Assembly (NCBI GenBank): GCA_025998755.1
Contig: AP024674.1
Location: forward strand, 2,248,162-2,312,161
Source of the DNA: Armatimonadota bacterium
GTDB taxonomy: Bacteria > Armatimonadota > UBA5829 > DSUL01
DNA: 64,000 bases
Reading direction: 5' to 3'
The notes beneath the pieces are model-generated. The model made no database searches. It saw only the letters and a list, made by a program, of their open reading frames with translations, and was not told the DNA's origin. Both the position numbers and the translations under genes were made by a program. Positions 9,918 to 33,240 of this stretch are shown here, piece after piece; positions within the stretch are counted from its first letter, which is position 1; each line of letters begins with the position of its first letter.

Positions 9918-11051
9918 CTATGCCCAGAGACAGGCGGCCGCGACACGAACGGCGTCTTCCCAGTCTTGCGCTTCGTAGATCAGACCTGCGCCGGAAGGGA
10001 AATTGGTGGCGGCTTGTCCGGAAAGGAGTTCATCCCTTGAGACCACCACTCGCGTCAGCGCCGCACTCCGCTCGCGGCACTGCCGGTGGATCCTGAAGAT
10101 ATCCATCCGGCGGCTCTCACCGCAGTCCAGCCCCTTGAGCGCCCTGATCTCCAGCATCTCCGGGATGAGGTGGCTGAAGTCTCCGCAAGAGTGGATGGAA
10201 CCTCCCCCGCACCGCTCCAGAAGCATCGCGTCGAACGGGCGCACCTGCTCCGCATACATCCGGGCGGAAAGCATCATGGCCGTGTCGCAGCGCAGCAGGA
10301 TGGTCCCCGGGACGAAGTAGTTGTGCTGTGAGGCGAGCTCCGGGAGCAAGGGATCGCGGGTGAGCGGACGCAGCCATCCAACCATTTGCCACGTGGCGTC
10401 CACCACGCGCTGGAGCAGCACGGCCACCATCTCCGGCTCCTCCACAAACTCCGCAAAAAGATCGCTTCCCCGGAGCTGCTCGGCGGTATCCAGCGGCCCT
10501 TGCAGGTCGGGCAGCGCGACGCAGACACACTCCCGGAGCGCCGGATAACCCGCCAGCTTATCGTGGAAGTATCGCATCATCTCCCAGGTCTGGCACAGCA
10601 CTCCAGACTGCGAGGTCACGGCCATATCCCCTTCCAGGATCCTCTGCAGTTGTCCGGCATTGACGGGCTCCACCTAGGGAAAGTCGTCTTCCCTCTGCGT
10701 CCAGTGGGCTCCGAGCGCGCTTGCCACCTGAATGGTCCCCAGGTTCGCGCGGATGGCCAGGGCGCTGTCATCCCTGAGGATCAGACCGGGCACCACGCTC
10801 TGGATGAGCTGGGACAGCATCATCGCCGCGGGGTTGCGGAACGCATCGCGGTAGGGAACAGGAGCGAACTCGTTCCACGGCGGAGGGACGCAGGCAGCGG
10901 AAGGAATCTGGATCATCAGCGGAGGACGGTCCACTTCCTGCCAGCGAAGCGCCCGCAACCAACGCTGCCGGCTGTTCTGCGTCCGCACCGGGTCCGCCAG
11001 TGCATCACCAAGCAGCAGCGCGCAAGCGAGTTCCTGTTCGTAGTGCCGCAT
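9918..11051 (-). pseudogene. UroD/MtaA-family methyltransferase interrupted by one TAG
   Basis: Two pieces, 10674-11051 (N-terminal 125 residues) and 9918-10673 (251 residues), lie in the same frame separated only by a TAG at 10674-10676. Together they make 377 residues, matching the intact paralogue at 32095-33240 (381). The C-terminal piece has the HSCG zinc-binding motif (GGSIHSCGDFSH) of the MtaA/MtbA methylcobamide-transferase branch. The context before and after the stop (DDFP then VEPV) is where Trp fits, and TGG to TAG is one transition. It could be a recent nonsense mutation, a sequencing error, or recoding; GTG follows the stop and could allow internal restart. It lies near mtaB, so its normal job was probably methyl transfer from a corrinoid protein. 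Confidence 0.75.
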
Positions 11052-11435
11052 CAGGCAAAGAAAACTCCCGCCGCATCTTTCTCCTTCAGCCGGCCCGGCA
11101 GAGGCCCGGCGGGGCCGCAGTTGGGAATATGCTGCTTCCCGTTTCTCGCCGCCATCCGCTACACCTGCCCTTTCACTTCGCCCCGAGAGGCACCTTCAGG
11201 ATCTGCGCGGAGCAGGGGAAATGCGGACTGAGGCGGCTGAAGCCAACATTGACCTCATTGCTCTCATTTCCCGCAGGATGTGTTAGCGGAGCGGACACTG
11301 CGCCCCTGCCGGACGCTCCGCAGCAAGGGAAGTGTTGTCGGTGCGGCCCCGCTGCGTGGAACAAATACACAAGAAAGAGTTGAGGGGGAGTTCCTGCGCG
11401 CGCCACGGGCGGACAGAGTCAGGAGTCTGAACACA
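11052..11435. other. Gene-free gap between UroD pseudogene and winged-helix gene
   Basis: Divergent gap of 384 bp. It must hold the promoters of both flanking genes, but I see no convincing -35/-10 pair. There is no tRNA or recognisable riboswitch. Confidence 0.5.
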
Positions 11436-12044
11436 ATGAGCCAAATCCTCGAACAGGTGAACGCCATCTGCGACCGGCTGGATGCGGCCCTGCGGGACAT
11501 TCTCTCCACGCTGGAGAGCCCGGCCACCCGGCAGACCGCCGAGCAACTCGCCTCCGTGGAGAACGCCGTAGAGAGCCTGGATTCCAAGGGCGTCCCCGTG
11601 CCGGAGCAGCTCCAGGATCTGCTGAATTCTCTTCGCGAACAGGTCCGCAAGACCGGCGAAAGCCGGGATGCGCTGGACGCCGTCCGTCAGCGCCTGCAAA
11701 CCTGGACGGATCTCATCTCGTCTCAGGGAGATGAACACCCGGTTCGCAGCAAAGACCCGCGCAAGCCCGGCATCCGCGAGGAGGATCTGGAGCCACTCAT
11801 CGTTGAGGCGCTGACCGAGGCAGGCGGAGCCGCGCGCGCTGACGACGTGCTGGCGGTGGTGGAGGAGCGGCTTGGTTCATCACTGGGCGAGGCCGATCTG
11901 CAGCCGGGCCCGAACGGGCGCCCACGATGGCACGCGACCGCCGAGTGGGCGCACCAGAACCTGCTGGACCGCGGGGTGGCCGAGATCGGCGATCAGGCGG
12001 GAGTCTGGCAGCTCTCCCCGCAGTACGCCAGGAAGTCGGCCTGA
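11436..12044 (+). CDS. Coiled-coil plus winged-helix-like protein, function unknown
   Basis: A 202-residue soluble protein. Residues 1-110 are rich in Leu/Glu/Arg heptads (coiled coil). The C-terminal 90 residues (EEDLEPLIVEALTEAGGAAR onward, ending in WAHQNLLDRGVAEIGD and GVWQLS) look like the winged-helix module found at the N-terminus of Mrr-type nucleases and some regulators. No nuclease domain follows. The ATG at 11436 was chosen because AGGAG precedes it at a 10-nt distance; the frame is open upstream. The gene converges with mtaB. It could be DNA-binding, which is inference. Confidence 0.65.
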   Translation: MSQILEQVNAICDRLDAALRDILSTLESPATRQTAEQLASVENAVESLDSKGVPVPEQLQDLLNSLREQVRKTGESRDALDAVRQRLQTWTDLISSQGDEHPVRSKDPRKPGIREEDLEPLIVEALTEAGGAARADDVLAVVEERLGSSLGEADLQPGPNGRPRWHATAEWAHQNLLDRGVAEIGDQAGVWQLSPQYARKSA

Positions 12045-12048
12045 GACG

Positions 12049-12075
12049 AAAAAGCGGAGCCGCAAGCGGCCCCGC
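12049..12075 (-). terminator. Intrinsic terminator of mtaB
   Basis: A stem of GCGGGGCCGC and GCGGCTCCGC (one mismatch, tight loop) is followed on the minus strand by TTTTT, 26 bp after the mtaB stop. Confidence 0.7.
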
Positions 12076-12100
12076 GGCGTTCCGGCAATTGATCGCCGGC

Positions 12101-13507
12101 TCAGGCGGCGCTTTGGGCCGCTCCCTCCCAGGGACCGTACTCCTCCAGCAATACCTTGCCCGGGTCCAGTCCCGGCGTCACCATCGCTTCCAGTTCGTCC
12201 TCGCTCTCCGGCAGGGCCTCGATCTGCTCGCTCAGCATATCCAGCCATCCTGCGTCGCGCTCGGAAATCTCCAGCCTGCCGGCGGAATGCGCCTTGCGAA
12301 GCGCAGCCGCAGCCTCCACTGCCCCTCGGCGCACGCGCAGGTAAGGTGTGGGCTCCTCCACAATGGCAGAGGCGATCTCCAGCACCACGTCCGGTCGAAG
12401 CACGTATGCTTGAGGATCGAACCGCGCGTCCGACTCCACCAGCCATTCCTGCAACAGCCGGGCATTCTGCGGTCCGCCGGCCGCAGCGGTGTTCATCAGC
12501 CGCGTGGCGTAAACCAGCTGCTCCAGGGATACCGTGGGCGCCATTCCGCCCAGCAGACGGATGTTCTGCACGGACTCGTTGCTCCAGAGGTCGGCCAGCG
12601 CCTGCGAGATGTTGCCCACCGGCGAAAGATGCGCGCACGCCGCCTGGCTTCCCTCCATCGAAATGGGAAAGCCGGTGATGGCCTTGAGGTAGGGCCCTTC
12701 ATAGGCGCAGTCCTTACTGGGTCCAACAGCTCCCCTTTCGAAAGCTGTCAGGGAGCGGGCGACAGTCATCACGCGGATGATGGCCGCCCACACGCGAGGA
12801 ATGTAGCGCTTCTCGGCAAGCACCATCGCCGTGTTTCCAAAGCCGCACGCGCTGTCTCCCGCGGCGAAGGCTCCGTGGCGCTTCGCGGTGTCCACGATCA
12901 TGTCCCACAGGAACGCCATATCCCGCGCCCCCATAACCCCCAGGGAGTAAGCCGCCGCCGCGACGTCTGCAGTCAGTACGGCGTCGTCGTGCACCTCCTT
13001 GCCCCCTGTGGACTCTATGGAGAGCATGTCGGCCCCCGCCGCCGCGCACAGCTCAAAGCTGCGCGTCATGCTTTCCCAAAGATGCCCCCGGCGCATCCTG
13101 GGCGGTCTTTCGTGCTCCCGGATGTCGTTGGGCGTCACCCGCAGAGCCCCCAGCAGACCGTCACTCTCTGCAAAGCGGTCGAGCGTCTCGCGCAGAATCG
13201 CTGTTACCTCCGCCCCCCATTCAGGATGGATGGTCATAGGGGGCAACAGCTCAAACTCAACCACCAGACCGGGCGCGTTAAGCTCCACCGCCCGCCGGCA
13301 CGCTTCTTCGATCATCCCCGCATATTGCGATCGCACCTCGGGCATGGTGTCCGCCGTGATCTCCATAGGCGGCAGGGTGAAGTTCAACTCAGGATACACC
13401 TGCCCTCCACCGATGACCATTCCGTTCTTCAGGCGCAGCGGGCGCGGCGCCGACCCGTATAGAAACTCTTCCTGCGTCGTTACGGCCAGTGCCGAATAGG
13501 TCTCCAT
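12101..13507 (-). CDS. mtaB: Methanol:corrinoid methyltransferase, MtaB family
   Basis: A 468-residue TIM-barrel zinc enzyme that moves the methyl group of methanol (or a related substrate) to a corrinoid protein. It matches MtaB along its length: LTYG-like start (FLYGSAPRPL), IGGGQVYPELNF, SIESTGGKEV, AGDSACGFGNTAM, FERGAVGPSKDCAYEG, KAITGFPISMEG and CAHLSPVGN. The zinc ligands known for Methanosarcina MtaB (Glu164, Cys220, Cys269) correspond to Glu165, Cys221 and Cys267 here. A strong AGGAGG precedes the ATG. The partner corrinoid protein (MtaC) and a reductive activase are not in the window. A PocR-AraC regulator lies directly upstream on the same strand and is the obvious candidate regulator. 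Exact substrate is not proven. Confidence 0.9.
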   Translation of the reverse strand: METYSALAVTTQEEFLYGSAPRPLRLKNGMVIGGGQVYPELNFTLPPMEITADTMPEVRSQYAGMIEEACRRAVELNAPGLVVEFELLPPMTIHPEWGAEVTAILRETLDRFAESDGLLGALRVTPNDIREHERPPRMRRGHLWESMTRSFELCAAAGADMLSIESTGGKEVHDDAVLTADVAAAAYSLGVMGARDMAFLWDMIVDTAKRHGAFAAGDSACGFGNTAMVLAEKRYIPRVWAAIIRVMTVARSLTAFERGAVGPSKDCAYEGPYLKAITGFPISMEGSQAACAHLSPVGNISQALADLWSNESVQNIRLLGGMAPTVSLEQLVYATRLMNTAAAGGPQNARLLQEWLVESDARFDPQAYVLRPDVVLEIASAIVEEPTPYLRVRRGAVEAAAALRKAHSAGRLEISERDAGWLDMLSEQIEALPESEDELEAMVTPGLDPGKVLLEEYGPWEGAAQSAA

Positions 13508-13523
13508 CGCGCTTCCTCCTGAT

Positions 13524-13574
13524 CCGGCCTGCTAGCCGGCCGGCCATACCCATGGTCCCACGAACGCTTGTGGG
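13524..13574 (-). promoter_or_regulatory. Two inverted repeats in the mtaB leader
   Basis: CCGGCC/GGCCGG with an 8-nt spacer (13524-13543) and an 18-bp imperfect palindrome CCCACGAACGCTTGTGGG (13557-13574) lie 17-67 bp upstream of mtaB. They are candidate operator or leader structures; no clear promoter boxes accompany them. Confidence 0.4.
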
Positions 13575-13663
13575 AATCTGGTGCGGTGGTAGCAGATGTC
13601 TGGAAATGTGGTGGGCGCCGCTGGTAGAAAGGTTGCCTTGGTGATTTCGTGCGCAGGGAACGG

Positions 13664-14803
13664 CTAACGCAGCCCGGAACGCTCCCTCTGCCGGTACTCT
13701 GAAGGAGTGCAACCGGCGATCCGACGGAACACCTTGGTGAAATAGCTCTGATCCGGGAAGCCACACTCCAGCGCGATCTCCGCCAGATTCATCTCAGAGG
13801 TCTTCAGCAGCTCGCGCGCCCGGTCAACGCGCATCTGAGCCACCAGGCTGGTGAAGGTCATCCCGAACCGCTCACGCACCACCCGGGAAAAGTGGGAAGG
13901 CGACATGCAGGCCACACGCGCCGCCTGGTCGCGCGAGACTTCACCGCCAAGATTCTCGCTGATGTATGCGAGCGCGGCGTTGAGCAGCACTCCCTGGGGA
14001 TAGCGGCGGTGCGTCCGGATGGAGTCCATGATGCGTTCCAGCATCTCCACCAGCCAGCGGGTCAGCTCCTCCTCCCCTTCAATTCGCGACAGCCGCACCA
14101 GGCTGGAGTAGTTTGCCCCCAGCACACCGGCCGGGTCGGCGCCGGCCTCCACCGCGGAGCGCGACATGCTGACCACCAGCTCCAGGATGAAGCTCTTCAG
14201 AAGATCCTGGCGGCCTCTTCCGAAGAAATAGATCCCCACAAGAATGCGGTTGAGGATGGCCCGCGCCTCGGACCGGTCACCCCGGCGGATGGCGGACATC
14301 AACCCCGCTTCTTCACGCAGGTAGATCTCGCGGATGGAGTCGTAGGCGCGCCCTTTCAGCTCGTGGATGGCCTCCGCCCTGCGCGACTCTCTGTCTGCTT
14401 CCCGACGGCGAAGCTCCAGGTGGGCCGCGTTGGTCAGGTTTGCCTCCTCGGCCATTTTCTGGAGCAGAAGGGCCGACTGCCGGATTCGCGCGCTCTCCCG
14501 CTCTGCGGAGTCCTCCTCGATGCGCACTCCGTCCACCACAAGTCCGCCGGTGATCTCCGCGTTGTTCATCAGCGGAATGCCCCAGAGAAGCCGCCCGCGC
14601 GGGCACAGATGCAGAAACGGCTCACCCCACCGGGCGGTCTCGTGGAAGGCCAGCCTGCGCGCCTGCCGGCAGGCGTCATCATCCGCGGGGCAAACACAGC
14701 AGCTGACGCCGCCGGTTAGATGCCCGTCGCGGTCGCAGACAGCCACGGGCAGACCGGTGCGGAGAAGATATTCCTGGCACAGAGTCTGGATGCGGGGATC
14801 CAT
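13664..14803 (-). CDS. PocR-domain AraC-family transcriptional regulator
   Basis: A 379-residue regulator. Residues 1-110 form a PocR sensory domain with a Cys cluster (SCCVCPADDDACRQAR) and the LHLCPRGRLLWGIPL block. A helical linker of about 150 residues is followed by two AraC helix-turn-helix units from residue 275 (RDQAARVACMSPSHFSRVVRERFG and LAEIALECGFPDQSYFTKVFRR). PocR domains are common on regulators of corrinoid-dependent C1 metabolism and propanediol use. It is transcribed towards mtaB with 156 bp between, so mtaB is its likely target. A TATAAT lies at 14818-14823, only 14 bp before the ATG, suggesting a very short leader. Confidence 0.9.
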   Translation of the reverse strand: MDPRIQTLCQEYLLRTGLPVAVCDRDGHLTGGVSCCVCPADDDACRQARRLAFHETARWGEPFLHLCPRGRLLWGIPLMNNAEITGGLVVDGVRIEEDSAERESARIRQSALLLQKMAEEANLTNAAHLELRRREADRESRRAEAIHELKGRAYDSIREIYLREEAGLMSAIRRGDRSEARAILNRILVGIYFFGRGRQDLLKSFILELVVSMSRSAVEAGADPAGVLGANYSSLVRLSRIEGEEELTRWLVEMLERIMDSIRTHRRYPQGVLLNAALAYISENLGGEVSRDQAARVACMSPSHFSRVVRERFGMTFTSLVAQMRVDRARELLKTSEMNLAEIALECGFPDQSYFTKVFRRIAGCTPSEYRQRERSGLR

Positions 14804-19996: not shown

Positions 19997-20271
19997 GTAT
20001 CGTGCACCCGGCCTCGATCCGTTCCCGCGGCAGCCGTCCGCGCGGCCAGGCTCAGGCCGGGGCGGCCGGCGGCACACGCCTGACCTGCTTACCGCTGCTT
20101 CCTTCCGGACCTGACGGGGTTCACAGGCAGCACGTTGCACCGGGCCCGGCCATCAACGTCGGCCGGCGCGGCCGCTTGCAGCAGAAAGCGGACCTCAGCA
20201 CGGGGATTCCGCCCCGCATAAAGCGGTTTTCGGGTTACAGGGCACCGCTAGTTCCCCGCCTAGCACGATAC
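19997..20271 (-). ncRNA. Signal recognition particle RNA, large type with Alu domain
   Basis: About 275 nt. The S-domain core GTCAGGTCCGGAAGGAAGCAGC is split around 20092-20114 (minus strand). The 5' half has the Alu-domain signature also found in Bacillus scRNA: GTGCTAGGCGGGGAACTAGC, then GGTGCCCTGTAACCCG and the segment ending CTGAGG. The 5' end (GTATCGTGC) pairs with the 3' end (GTGCACGATAC), which fixes both boundaries to within a few bases. It is therefore not the short 4.5S form. It lies just upstream of dnaX, as in Bacillus. Confidence 0.92.
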
Positions 20272-29466: not shown

Positions 29467-29807
29467 TGGCAAAAGTCGTCCGCAGACCCGGGGTTGCCGC
29501 GGACCTGGTGGAGATCGGCGTTTACTATGTGCTGAACGGAAGTCCCGGGGCGGCCGAACGTTTTCTGGATGCGGTCGAGTCTGGCTTTCACCTTCTGGCG
29601 CGTCATCCACGCGCCGGGCGGGTCGGGAAAAGTGACCACCCAAAACCGAGCAATCTCGGATTCTAGCCCGTGAAGGGCTTCGAGAGTCCGCTGGTATTCT
29701 ACCGGGAGATCCCGGAAGGTATTGAAGTCATCCGCGTGCTTCACGGAGCACGTGAGCTGCAGGTTCTGCTGGACGACGATGAAACAGCGGGGGAGGAGCA
29801 GTCATGA
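29466..29807 (+). pseudogene. ParE-like toxin with in-frame TAG
   Basis: Reads MAKVVRRPGVAADLVEIGVYY, then ERFLDAVESGFHLLARHPRAGR, both typical of ParE/RelE-fold toxins, up to a TAG at 29664-29666. The same frame continues with PVKGFESPLVFYREIPEG and IEVIRVLHGARELQVLL, the expected C-terminal half, to a TGA at 29805. Family members often have Trp-Pro where TAG-Pro stands here, so TGG to TAG is the simplest lesion. Total length without the stop (113 codons) is normal. With the antitoxin also broken, the pair is a decayed module. Confidence 0.82.
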
Positions 29808-30625
29808 AACTGGATGTTTGCCTGGAGATGGTCTTCACGGACCTGCCGACCGAGGAGCGCATCGTGCGCATCGGTCGGGCGGGCTACTCGGCGGTGGAGT
29901 TCTGGTTCCACGACGCAACTTTTGACGGCAACGGCTGTCCGCCTGGCACCGGCAAGGATGCCGACGCGGTGCGGCAGGCCTGTCAGCAGGCCGGCGTGGA
30001 GTTGAACAACATGGTGGTCAACGCCCCGGACGGCAGCTTCGGTGGCTCGCCAGTGGACTCCCGGGACCTTCAGAAGTATCTGGAGCGCACGGAAGAGGTG
30101 ATTGCGTTTGCGAAGCGCGCGGGATGCTCGAAAGCCATCACGTGCACCGGCAACCTGGTGCCCGGACTGGAGCGCCCGGCGATGCGGGCCAATCTTGAAA
30201 AGGCTCTGGCCGCTGCGGCGGAGATAGCCCAAAAGAACGCCTTCACGCTCCTCCTGGAGCCCCTGAACACGCACGTGGATCATCCCGGCTACTACCTGGA
30301 TTCCTCCCACGAGGGAGCCGAGATCGTCCGGGCCATTGGAAGCCCTTCCCTGAAGCTGCTCTATGACGTCTATCACATGCAGATCATGGAGGGGAACATC
30401 ATCTCCAATATCCGCGGGCATCGGGACGTCATCGGACATTTCCACTCCGCGGGAGTACCCGGACGGCACGAGCACTTCGGCACGGAACTGAACTATCCGG
30501 CCATCCTGCGCGCAATCGAGGAGTCAGGATACACAGGCTGCTTCGGCCTGGAGTACGCGCCGGAGATGCAGGATCACGCCGAATCCCTCGTCCGCGTCCG
30601 GGAATACCTTGAAGGACGCGGCTGA
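29804..30625 (+). CDS. Hydroxypyruvate isomerase-like TIM-barrel protein
   Basis: A 273-residue AP-endonuclease-2/xylose-isomerase-like barrel. Metal and substrate residues appear as LLLEPLNTHVDHPGYYLD, LLYDVYHMQIMEGN, HFHSAGVPGRHEH and GLEYAPEM, the pattern of Hyi-type isomerases. Substrate is not certain; hydroxypyruvate/tartronate semialdehyde or a ketose are typical. The ATG overlaps the end of the dead ParE frame but has its own strong GGGGGAGGAG. The MttB and UroD genes follow on the same strand (33-bp and 5-bp gaps), so it may belong to that operon. Confidence 0.85.
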   Translation: MKLDVCLEMVFTDLPTEERIVRIGRAGYSAVEFWFHDATFDGNGCPPGTGKDADAVRQACQQAGVELNNMVVNAPDGSFGGSPVDSRDLQKYLERTEEVIAFAKRAGCSKAITCTGNLVPGLERPAMRANLEKALAAAAEIAQKNAFTLLLEPLNTHVDHPGYYLDSSHEGAEIVRAIGSPSLKLLYDVYHMQIMEGNIISNIRGHRDVIGHFHSAGVPGRHEHFGTELNYPAILRAIEESGYTGCFGLEYAPEMQDHAESLVRVREYLEGRG

Positions 30626-30658
30626 GTTCGATCCGTGAGAAGGAGGGTTCTTTTTGTC

Positions 30659-32089
30659 ATGAACCTGTCGCCGCTCTGTGTTCTCTCGCCTGAGGATATC
30701 GAGGCCATCCACGAGGCCACGTTGGACATTCTGGCGTCAACCGGAGTCCGTGTGCAGAGCGCCCGGATGCTTGGGCTACTGGCGGAGAAGGGCCTGGATG
30801 TGGACACTCAGACCGGCATCGTGCGCTTCCCTCGAGGCAGCATTGAAGACGCCATCGGCAGCACTCCCCGCAGCTTCGAGGTTTTCGGGCGCGAAGGCGA
30901 GCCGGCTTTCGTTCTAGGGGACGGCACGCCACGCGTAGCGGCCGGCCACAACGCCATCTTCTGGGTGGACAGCGAGACGGGCGAGACACGGCCCTCCACC
31001 GTGCGGGACGTTGAGCAGTTCGCGCACCTGTGCGAGCTGCTGCCCAACATCGATATGATCGGCATCCCGGTCATGCCTCAGGATGTGCCCGTCGCAGGCG
31101 CCACACTGCTGTACGGCGTGCGTGCCTGCATCCAGAACAGCCGGAAACCCATCTACTATTCCACCGACCGTCCCGAGGTAAACCGGGCCATCATCCGGAT
31201 GCTGGAGCGTGCGTTCGCGGGCGATCTCTCCCGGCAGGTCTACGGCATCACGCAGGTCTCCCCCACCAGCCCGCTGTGGTGGGAGGAAGGCGTGCTGGAA
31301 CAGATCATCGAGACCGTCCAGACCGGTGTGCCGATCGCGATACTCCCAGAACCGAATGCCGGAGTGTCGGCTCCGTTCACGCTGGCGGGTCTACTGACCG
31401 TCAACAACGCCGAATGCCTCTCGGGCATCGCCATGATCCAGCTTCTGAAACCAGGGGCGAAGGCGCTCTATGCGAACTCCTGGACCACCACCGACATGCG
31501 CAGCGGAGCGGCGCTGGTGGGATCCTGCGAGACCACCATCTGCCGCATCGCCGGGGCGCAGCTTGCCCGGTTCTATAGGCTACCCTGCCATACCACCGCC
31601 CCTAACTCAGACAATCACGCCCACGACGAGCAGAACGCCTGGGAGAAAACGCTCAGCCAGTTCTGCTCCATAGCAGCGGGAAACGATCTGATCGTCAACT
31701 GCGGGATGTTCGCGACGGGGATGACCTGCAGCCACGAGCAGCTTGTCATGGATGATGAGATCAGCGCCATGGCCCGCAGGATCGTCGCGGGAGTGCGGGT
31801 AAACGCCGACACGATCGCCGCGGACCTCATCAAGAGCGTGGGACCGGCCGGGACGGGGTACATCACATCCGACCATACAATGCGGTGGCTGAGATCGGAC
31901 GAATATCTGACTCCCCGGCTGGCTGTGCGGGGCAGCCGGACGCTCTGGGAGTCCGCCGGCGCAAAAGACACCTACCAGATTGCGCGGGATGAGGTGACGC
32001 GTCTGCTCCAGCAGCCGGCGGCTCCGCTGGACGCCGCACGCCTGGAAGGCGTGGGCCGGGTGGTGGATGAGTTCGTGAAGAAGGGATAG
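30659..32089 (+). CDS. MttB-family corrinoid methyltransferase, non-pyrrolysine
   Basis: A 476-residue TIM-barrel protein of the trimethylamine methyltransferase superfamily. The N-terminus (LSPEDIEAIHEATLDILASTGVRVQS) is diagnostic; PSTVRDVEQFAHLCELLPNID and the C-terminal HTMRWLRSDEYLTP follow. The frame has no internal TAG, so it is of the pyrrolysine-free kind. Characterised non-Pyl members demethylate quaternary amines such as glycine betaine, proline betaine or carnitine; which one applies here is unknown. The ATG at 30659 follows AAGGAGG. The UroD gene downstream starts 5 bp after the stop. No corrinoid protein is encoded nearby. Confidence 0.92.
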   Translation: MNLSPLCVLSPEDIEAIHEATLDILASTGVRVQSARMLGLLAEKGLDVDTQTGIVRFPRGSIEDAIGSTPRSFEVFGREGEPAFVLGDGTPRVAAGHNAIFWVDSETGETRPSTVRDVEQFAHLCELLPNIDMIGIPVMPQDVPVAGATLLYGVRACIQNSRKPIYYSTDRPEVNRAIIRMLERAFAGDLSRQVYGITQVSPTSPLWWEEGVLEQIIETVQTGVPIAILPEPNAGVSAPFTLAGLLTVNNAECLSGIAMIQLLKPGAKALYANSWTTTDMRSGAALVGSCETTICRIAGAQLARFYRLPCHTTAPNSDNHAHDEQNAWEKTLSQFCSIAAGNDLIVNCGMFATGMTCSHEQLVMDDEISAMARRIVAGVRVNADTIAADLIKSVGPAGTGYITSDHTMRWLRSDEYLTPRLAVRGSRTLWESAGAKDTYQIARDEVTRLLQQPAAPLDAARLEGVGRVVDEFVKKG

Positions 32090-32094
32090 GTCGG

Positions 32095-33240
32095 GTGGCG
32101 CTGGTCGTCTCGGACTGGATGCGGGATGAGCTGGAGCGGCGGAAGGATCTCTACCGCCGGCTGTTCGCGGGCCAGCCACTGGAGCGGGCGCCGATAGACG
32201 TTCGGGTCACCCTTCCCCCGGAGCACACCACCCAGGAGCTGTTTCGGGACGGCGAAAAGCAGCTCCAGGCGGCCCTATCCTCGGCGATGGCCACCTGGGA
32301 GACACTGCCGGACACGGATGCAATTCCCGCCATGCGCCCGGATGTGGGATGCTCCTGCCTGGCGAGTGCGTTCGGGTGCGAGTACTACTGGGGACCGAAT
32401 CCGGACCAGACCCCCGGCATCAAGGGACCGATCATCTCCGATCTGGAGCAGCAGGTGGACTCGCTGCCTGTTCCTGATCCGCACACGGACGGCTGGCTTC
32501 CTGAAGGACTCCGGCGCATCCGGATGTTCGCAGACGCGGGGGAAGGATTTGTGCCGGTGTCGCTTCTGGACGCGGCAGGCGGGGTGAATGTGGCGGCCGA
32601 CCTGATGGGGGTCACGGAGCTGCTGGTGGCCTTTCATACAGCACCGGAGGCGCTTCATCGGTTGCTGGAGAAGATCCAGGATCTGTATCTGGCCACCATC
32701 CGTGCGGGCATCGAGGCGGCGGGCGGGCAGGACAATATCACCACCGTGGACTTCCCGGATACGTGGTTCCCGGAGGGATTCAAGGGGCATGCCAGCGACG
32801 ACATCTCCGCGAGCTTCGGTCCCGAGATATACCGGGAGTTTAGCGCCCCGTATCACGCGCGCGTTTTCCGGGAGTTCGGTTGCGGCGGACTGCACAACTG
32901 CGGTCCCAACCCGTGTCATGAGGCCTATTTCGAGCACAACTTCTCCCCCCGCTCGCTGGACCTGGCATCGCCCTACAGCGATGAGGATCTGCCGCGCCTC
33001 CGGGAGTCCGTCAAAGGGCGAGGGTTCATCTATCTCTACTGGGATGGCGAGCGCGATCCCGTGGAGTGGTACCGCTCCCTGATGGAGACGATGGCTCCGG
33101 ATGTGCTTGTGGTGCCAATCGTGATGTTGACTCCGGACCGGGATCCGGCCGAGGTCTGCCGCAAGATGCGCCCTATCTCTCTGGAGTATGCGCGGCGCAT
33201 GGCGTGGGGCTGGACGCGCCTGCCGGGCGCGAGGGGCTAG
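32095..33240 (+). CDS. UroD/MtaA-family methyltransferase
   Basis: A 381-residue member of the uroporphyrinogen decarboxylase superfamily, in the branch near corrinoid:CoM or corrinoid:folate methyltransferases. A GGLHNCGPNPC segment gives the HxC zinc-site motif; the second region LDLASPYSDED replaces the Asp/Cys loop. Start is GTG at 32095. It is tightly coupled to the MttB-like gene, so it probably takes the methyl group from the same corrinoid protein, or acts on its substrate. It is the intact paralogue of the pseudogene at 9918-11051. True haem-pathway UroD is unlikely given the context. Confidence 0.86.
   Translation: MALVVSDWMRDELERRKDLYRRLFAGQPLERAPIDVRVTLPPEHTTQELFRDGEKQLQAALSSAMATWETLPDTDAIPAMRPDVGCSCLASAFGCEYYWGPNPDQTPGIKGPIISDLEQQVDSLPVPDPHTDGWLPEGLRRIRMFADAGEGFVPVSLLDAAGGVNVAADLMGVTELLVAFHTAPEALHRLLEKIQDLYLATIRAGIEAAGGQDNITTVDFPDTWFPEGFKGHASDDISASFGPEIYREFSAPYHARVFREFGCGGLHNCGPNPCHEAYFEHNFSPRSLDLASPYSDEDLPRLRESVKGRGFIYLYWDGERDPVEWYRSLMETMAPDVLVVPIVMLTPDRDPAEVCRKMRPISLEYARRMAWGWTRLPGARG

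Follow-up and report, generated by a model that had tools for sequence, protein, structure and literature searches.

A 64,000-nucleotide stretch of the genome of a presumably oxygen-respiring Armatimonadota bacterium (assembly GCA_025998755.1, contig AP024674.1, positions 2,248,162 to 2,312,161 of the forward strand; hereafter the window) encodes an intact member of the MtaB family of methanol-type corrinoid methyltransferases, adjacent to a regulator with PocR and AraC domains. Our preferred reading, to which we assign a probability of roughly 0.6, is that this mtaB is a lineage-specific, laterally acquired gene with its own regulator and operator, served by a corrinoid protein resident elsewhere in the genome. 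The system has probably changed partners rather than lacking one. The host genome, a single contig of 3,289,812 bases with a completeness of 98.95%, harbors the window at 2.248-2.312 Mb and a single copy of mtaB.

The mtaB gene, its regulator and its leader

The Pfam profile PF12176 (MtaB; cut-off 25 bits) matched residues 3-442 of the deduced protein with a score of 520 bits, and a phmmer comparison with PDB entry 2i2x_A gave an E value of 1.2e-79. In the alignment with this structure, residues E165, C221 and C267 correspond to E164, C220 and C269 of the M. barkeri enzyme, the zinc ligands in 2I2X; the three residues, together with long sequence blocks, are also invariant in an alignment with 12 relatives. 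The AlphaFold model of the protein (pLDDT 91) reproduced the 2i2x_A fold with a TM score of 0.91 (E 4.5e-33). These data confirm the family membership and intactness of the gene, in agreement with an earlier note, written from the letters of this DNA alone, which had recognized an MtaB with all three zinc ligands and proposed structure prediction of its active site. Methanol would be the substrate expected from family membership. Identity is 53-54% with the acetogen proteins, about 33-40% with MtaB of the methanogen type, and 94% with the counterpart in a sister species. Between the two species, mtaB differs by 0.303 at synonymous sites and shows a ratio of nonsynonymous to synonymous change (dN/dS) of 0.076, the regulator having a value of 0.084. 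Both genes are under purifying selection, which maintains the unit.

The regulator exceeded the Pfam cut-offs for both of its domains (HTH_18, 94.5 bits versus 33.6; PocR, 29.2 bits versus 23.9). Full-length orthologues (43-54% identity) were detected near mtaB in Chloroflexota (locus L111), Verrucomicrobiota (L154, L158, L181) and Lentisphaerota (L169), and a further one, at 42% identity, in L179. With orthologues beside mtaB in three phyla, the PocR-AraC protein is considered a genuine mtaB-associated regulator, and the earlier assignment of a PocR-domain regulator upstream of mtaB holds. In Chloroflexota L111 (JAKALH010000335.1) the gene order is regulator, mtaB, mtaC, and the regulator is 54% identical to that of the window. 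A second Chloroflexota locus, L113 (CALBEF010000031.1), is on a contig that ends before any regulator gene position. The MtaB proteins of L111 and L113 are 68 and 65% identical to the window protein, respectively, although in both loci, unlike in the window, mtaC directly follows mtaB.

The mtaB leader diverges from that of the sister species by only 9%, compared with 30% at the synonymous sites of mtaB. It contains two direct copies of a 15-bp motif, GCACCAGAYTNCCAG, with one and two mismatches in the window, none and one in the sister species, none and one in L111, and none and two in L113; the copies are spaced 30 bp apart in the window genus and 60 bp in the two Chloroflexota loci. Outside the window genus, the direct repeat is common only to the L111 and L113 leaders. 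No further exact match to its 14-base core was found in 258 loci (2.4 Mb), and just two other sites within the window lie at two or fewer mismatches from the motif. Because the motif was picked after viewing three of these leaders, the first copy does not count as independent evidence, and the second copies are the better evidence. Direct repeats are common binding sites of AraC proteins, and the two copies are interpreted as a putative operator to which the regulator may bind. The inverted repeats previously highlighted in the same leader do exist as sequence, two of them having perfect 6-bp arms and 8-bp spacers, but are not above chance (P 0.09 by shuffling, with 16% of window tiles holding as many); one of them is no longer perfect in the sister species, and they were rejected as a regulatory signal. 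The leader was likewise rejected as a structured RNA (z-scores of -1.29, -0.32 and 0.25, and no Rfam match in the leader).

Phylogeny of the methyltransferase and the corrinoid protein

The absence of MtaC and of an activase, as stated in the earlier note, holds for the 64-kb window but not for the genome, which encodes both at unlinked sites: its only PF02607 hits were at 78.6 and 623.9 kb, and its only RACo-type activase, with four RACo-type domains, at 2.706 Mb. The gene for the single free-standing MtaC-like corrinoid protein lies at 78.2 kb, about 1.1 million bases from mtaB; the protein consists of 211 amino acid residues and has both B12-binding domains and the motif DLHDIG. The remaining PF02607 protein is MetH. 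The corrinoid protein evolves under similar constraint (dN/dS 0.063 against the sister species) and is 52-63% identical to most mtaB-linked corrinoid proteins of the phylum, but only 33-39% to the methanogen-like ones; it scored below the MtaC equivalog cut-offs NF040655 and NF040669 (129 and 131 bits versus 420 and 450, respectively). A genome devoid of corrinoid proteins or of a one-carbon (C1) pathway, named in the earlier note as the finding that would speak against methyl-group use, is thus not what was encountered, as the corrinoid protein and C1 enzymes are present.

The two proteins have different phylogenetic positions. In the MtaB tree the window protein remains inside the MtaB family, as proposed earlier, and is nested with the sister species in a mainly Chloroflexota clade, in which Actinomycetota are few and Bacillota contribute a single record (support 96/93 for the inner set and 100/99 for the clade). 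The other 39 Armatimonadota copies fall elsewhere, 34 in other bacterial clades and five with the M. barkeri MtaB. The corrinoid protein, in contrast, clusters within its own class, adjoining a genome of the same family without mtaB and apart from the Chloroflexota mtaC products. It was present in all 28 class genomes listed by the search, whereas mtaB occurs within the class only in the two genomes of the window genus. Taken together, the position of MtaB among Chloroflexota, that of the corrinoid protein with its own class and the restriction of mtaB to one genus indicate, on the simplest reading, that mtaB was probably gained laterally and probably relies on the resident corrinoid protein; mtaB, the regulator and the repeats were apparently taken over from Chloroflexota. 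In the usual arrangement of the class, genes for a TPR protein, RACo and the corrinoid protein stand together, which supports RACo as the activase of the latter.

MtaB was detected in 44 of 291 Armatimonadota genomes (22 of 156 genera), and a scan of named bacterial and archaeal genomes yielded at least 546 stretches with MtaB relatives. In a single peatland, 19 phyla have been reported to carry bacterial mtxB genes, with methylamine, methanol and methoxy types counted together (PMC10805028). That this lineage uses methyl groups, as suggested in the earlier note, is plausible, but the rarity of such systems was overstated. Among 40 phylum loci examined, 26 have a corrinoid gene near mtaB, and the remaining 14 include those of the window genus and of two other families. 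A corrinoid protein is nevertheless encoded in 41 of 44 genomes with mtaB, compared with 107 of 247 without it (P 1e-10, an overstated and only indicative value as the genomes compared are related). Common neighbours of mtaB in the phylum are UroD proteins, DUF1638 and RACo. In 14 of the 40 loci a homocysteine S-methyltransferase domain protein lies within 9.5 kb on the same strand (e.g., L083:163-1104, L097:2211-3101 and L098:7748-8635), and homocysteine may receive methyl groups from the corrinoid protein through it.

Several individual loci were also recorded. In L065-L069 (Armatimonadota families f30 and f14), a methanogen-like MtaB (637-662 bits to PF12176) adjoins a natural fusion, 586-617 amino acid residues long, of an MtaA-type UroD domain and an MtaC-type corrinoid protein. 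In L098 (G094, 99% complete), mtaB is followed by a homocysteine methyltransferase gene and no corrinoid protein was found at E 1e-40; this genome may possess a more divergent one. Locus L224 (G219, a genome of the window family, 94% complete) combines RACo and four UroD genes with a corrinoid protein whose clade is the mtaB-linked one, and no mtaB was found.

Table 1. Coordinates of the features discussed, as positions within the window
Feature	Position	Strand	Basis or remark
PocR-AraC regulator, 379 aa (PocR residues 4-113, AraC helix-turn-helix residues 295-373)	13664..14803	-	Pfam
mtaB leader, 156 bp	13508..13663	-	14 of 155 positions changed relative to the sister species
Putative operator copy 2, CCACCACATTTCCAG, two mismatches to GCACCAGAYTNCCAG	13600..13614	-	30 bp upstream of copy 1, direct orientation
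Putative operator copy 1, GCACCAGATTCCCAC, one mismatch to GCACCAGAYTNCCAG	13570..13584	-	Leader comparison
mtaB, methanol-type corrinoid methyltransferase, 468 aa	12101..13507	-	Pfam, zinc ligands E165/C221/C267, fold match
Convergent gene, weak sub-threshold Mrr_N similarity	11436..12044	+	Between mtaB and the UroD-like gene
UroD-superfamily gene, one in-frame TAG at 10674-10676	9918..11051	-	Downstream of mtaB; otherwise a single open frame

Proposed pathway and alternative explanations

According to the preferred reading, mtaB, leader and regulator would derive from a Chloroflexota-like donor in which the genes stood in the order regulator-mtaB-mtaC; this genome has no mtaC of the donor type, and the resident corrinoid protein would be its likely substitute. 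The regulator, an activator binding the two repeats in the leader, would respond to a small methylated or hydroxylated compound. Zinc-bound MtaB would then activate methanol and pass the methyl group to the Co(I) form of the 78.2-kb corrinoid protein, which RACo would re-reduce after accidental oxidation. The methyl group might next be taken up by a stand-alone homocysteine methyltransferase, encoded at 971.5 kb, or by a member of the UroD family, which has about 24 genes (26 URO-D matches) in the 3.29-Mb genome, none of them shown to be an MtaA. Homocysteine is listed among the acceptors because a homocysteine methyltransferase recurs beside mtaB in relatives and a stand-alone one is present here, 37-43% identical to those proteins; the genome also has one that is fused to MTHFR. 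Methionine synthases that are supplied by corrinoid proteins and work independently of folate have been proposed in other families of enzymes (PMC7857596). The presence of about 24 URO-D-family genes and one free-standing corrinoid protein suggests a shared carrier, and in Moorella one corrinoid protein is common to several substrate-specific methyltransferases (PMC13391211).

Several observations weigh against this reading. In methanogens, pairs of MtaB and corrinoid protein can be strictly cognate (PMC9842639), and the pairing of MtaB with the class-type corrinoid protein is inferred. The window MtaB scored 384.6 bits with NF040651, the NCBIfam equivalog of methanogen MtaB, below a cut-off of 720 that is tuned to the methanogen enzymes. 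The only Pterin_bind proteins of the genome are a dihydropteroate-synthase-like one and MetH, and no acetogen-type folate methyltransferase was found among them. Finally, the genome has two haem-copper oxidase matches, while known MtaB systems belong to anaerobes.

The missed equivalog cut-off and the greater similarity to acetogen than to methanogen-type MtaB speak for an unchanged architecture with a related O-methyl or other C1 compound instead of methanol as the substrate, as does the proposed role of PocR as a general sensor of small hydrocarbon derivatives (PMC9768040). We regard this as a minor but real possibility, given that all zinc ligands and the long invariant blocks are retained and that the acetogen MtaB, methanol-induced in Moorella (PMC13391211), belongs to the same bacterial MtaB tree. 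A more far-reaching and rather improbable version of the partner change is that the acquired MtaB was joined to a vertically inherited, originally unrelated corrinoid protein which serves, in an aerobe, as the hub for more than 20 UroD, MTTB and MtaB methyltransferases, the methyl group being delivered to homocysteine by a stand-alone MetH-type domain and bypassing folate.

It is still less likely that MtaB methylates another corrinoid carrier, either free cob(I)alamin, which the M. barkeri enzyme accepts in place of MtaC according to the title of a reference quoted in PMC10418091, or the B12 domain of MetH, since no further PF02607 protein besides these two is encoded in the genome. MetH is normally supplied by its own folate domain, and the free-standing protein resembles mtaB-linked ones (52-63% identity), in disagreement with this alternative. 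The lack of a linked mtaC, the occurrence of mtaB in just two genomes of the class and the broken UroD-like gene nearby could mean that mtaB arrived without a partner and is a leftover with no useful role, but this is very improbable in view of the low dN/dS values of mtaB and its regulator and of a leader that changes far more slowly than synonymous sites.

Neighbouring genes and relation to known systems

The convergent gene next to mtaB is retained in the sister species (dN/dS 0.24) and probably does not belong to the mtaB system. Just 57 bases separate it from mtaB, and an mtaC hidden at this position was rejected. The UroD-like gene beyond it, described previously as a broken UroD/MtaA-like gene, is indeed UroD-like with a single in-frame stop, but its identity as MtaA and its link to mtaB found no support: it has no Pfam match and reached 19 bits with the coenzyme M methyltransferase (MtaA/CmuA) model (cut-off 244). 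Intact full-length relatives, with identities of up to 46%, occur in other phylum genomes and show no link to mtaB, and the sister species has dnaE immediately after the convergent gene, with no UroD gene between them. The 23-32% similarity to the UroD-like neighbour of mtaB in relatives is too weak to place the gene in the mtaB system, and it was rejected as mtaA. Pyrrolysine recoding of the TAG was rejected as well; since relatives carry an ordinary residue there, mostly tryptophan, the stop is more simply explained by a nonsense mutation or by an error in the assembly.

Elsewhere in the window, positions 29804-33240(+) hold a second methyltransferase cluster encoding a hydroxypyruvate-isomerase-like protein, an MTTB-family protein and a UroD/MtaA-CmuA-like protein. 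The MTTB-family protein is the only one of the genome; its gene has no in-frame TAG, and its score of 376 bits is below the equivalog cut-off (525). A bacterial large signal recognition particle RNA (160.9 bits) is located at 20000-20268(-).

With the acetogen MtaABC systems of Moorella, Acetobacterium and Sporomusa the window system shares the MtaB family, the 53-54% identity extending over the full length of the protein, as well as the zinc ligands and the same kind of corrinoid protein, a short one of about 210 amino acid residues. The acetogen genes, however, typically form one operon and deliver methyl groups to tetrahydrofolate for the Wood-Ljungdahl pathway (PMC13391211), whereas the present host has an unlinked corrinoid gene and haem-copper oxidases, and no such folate methyltransferase was found in it. 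A solitary mtaB and an MtaA-MtaC fusion have also been reported in Moorella (PMC13391211). The Armatimonadota clusters of the type mtaC-mtaB-UroD-UroD-homocysteine methyltransferase-DUF1638-RACo (e.g., L086, L087 and L092) encode MtaB proteins 55-57% identical to that of the window, and orthologues of several of their proteins are scattered in the host genome; they differ in having clustered genes, an MtaB of another clade and a corrinoid protein of another clade. The methanogen MtaABC of M. barkeri shares the fold and the zinc ligands, but identity in the fold alignment is 33% and the equivalog cut-offs are missed by both MtaB and the corrinoid protein here; M. barkeri MtaC has, moreover, an extra N-terminal domain (PMC9842639) that the corrinoid protein here lacks. 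No paper on mtaB in Armatimonadota was found in a literature search that covered few subscription journals. Bacterial MtaB systems are already known; what is new is that the methyltransferase and its probable carrier differ in their histories, and that a putative operator is shared with Chloroflexota.

Operon content alone is a poor judge of such systems: in this phylum a corrinoid gene is missing near mtaB at 14 of 40 loci, although 41 of the 44 genomes with mtaB encode one. The present case offers a concrete putative operator with its regulator, and places a methyl-corrinoid system in a lineage that has haem-copper oxidases. It also suggests that regulator, operator and mtaB may move between phyla as one unit, and that the substrate-activating methyltransferase may then be combined with a corrinoid protein which the recipient already has; such exchange, if true, would account for the patchy spread of methyl-group use.

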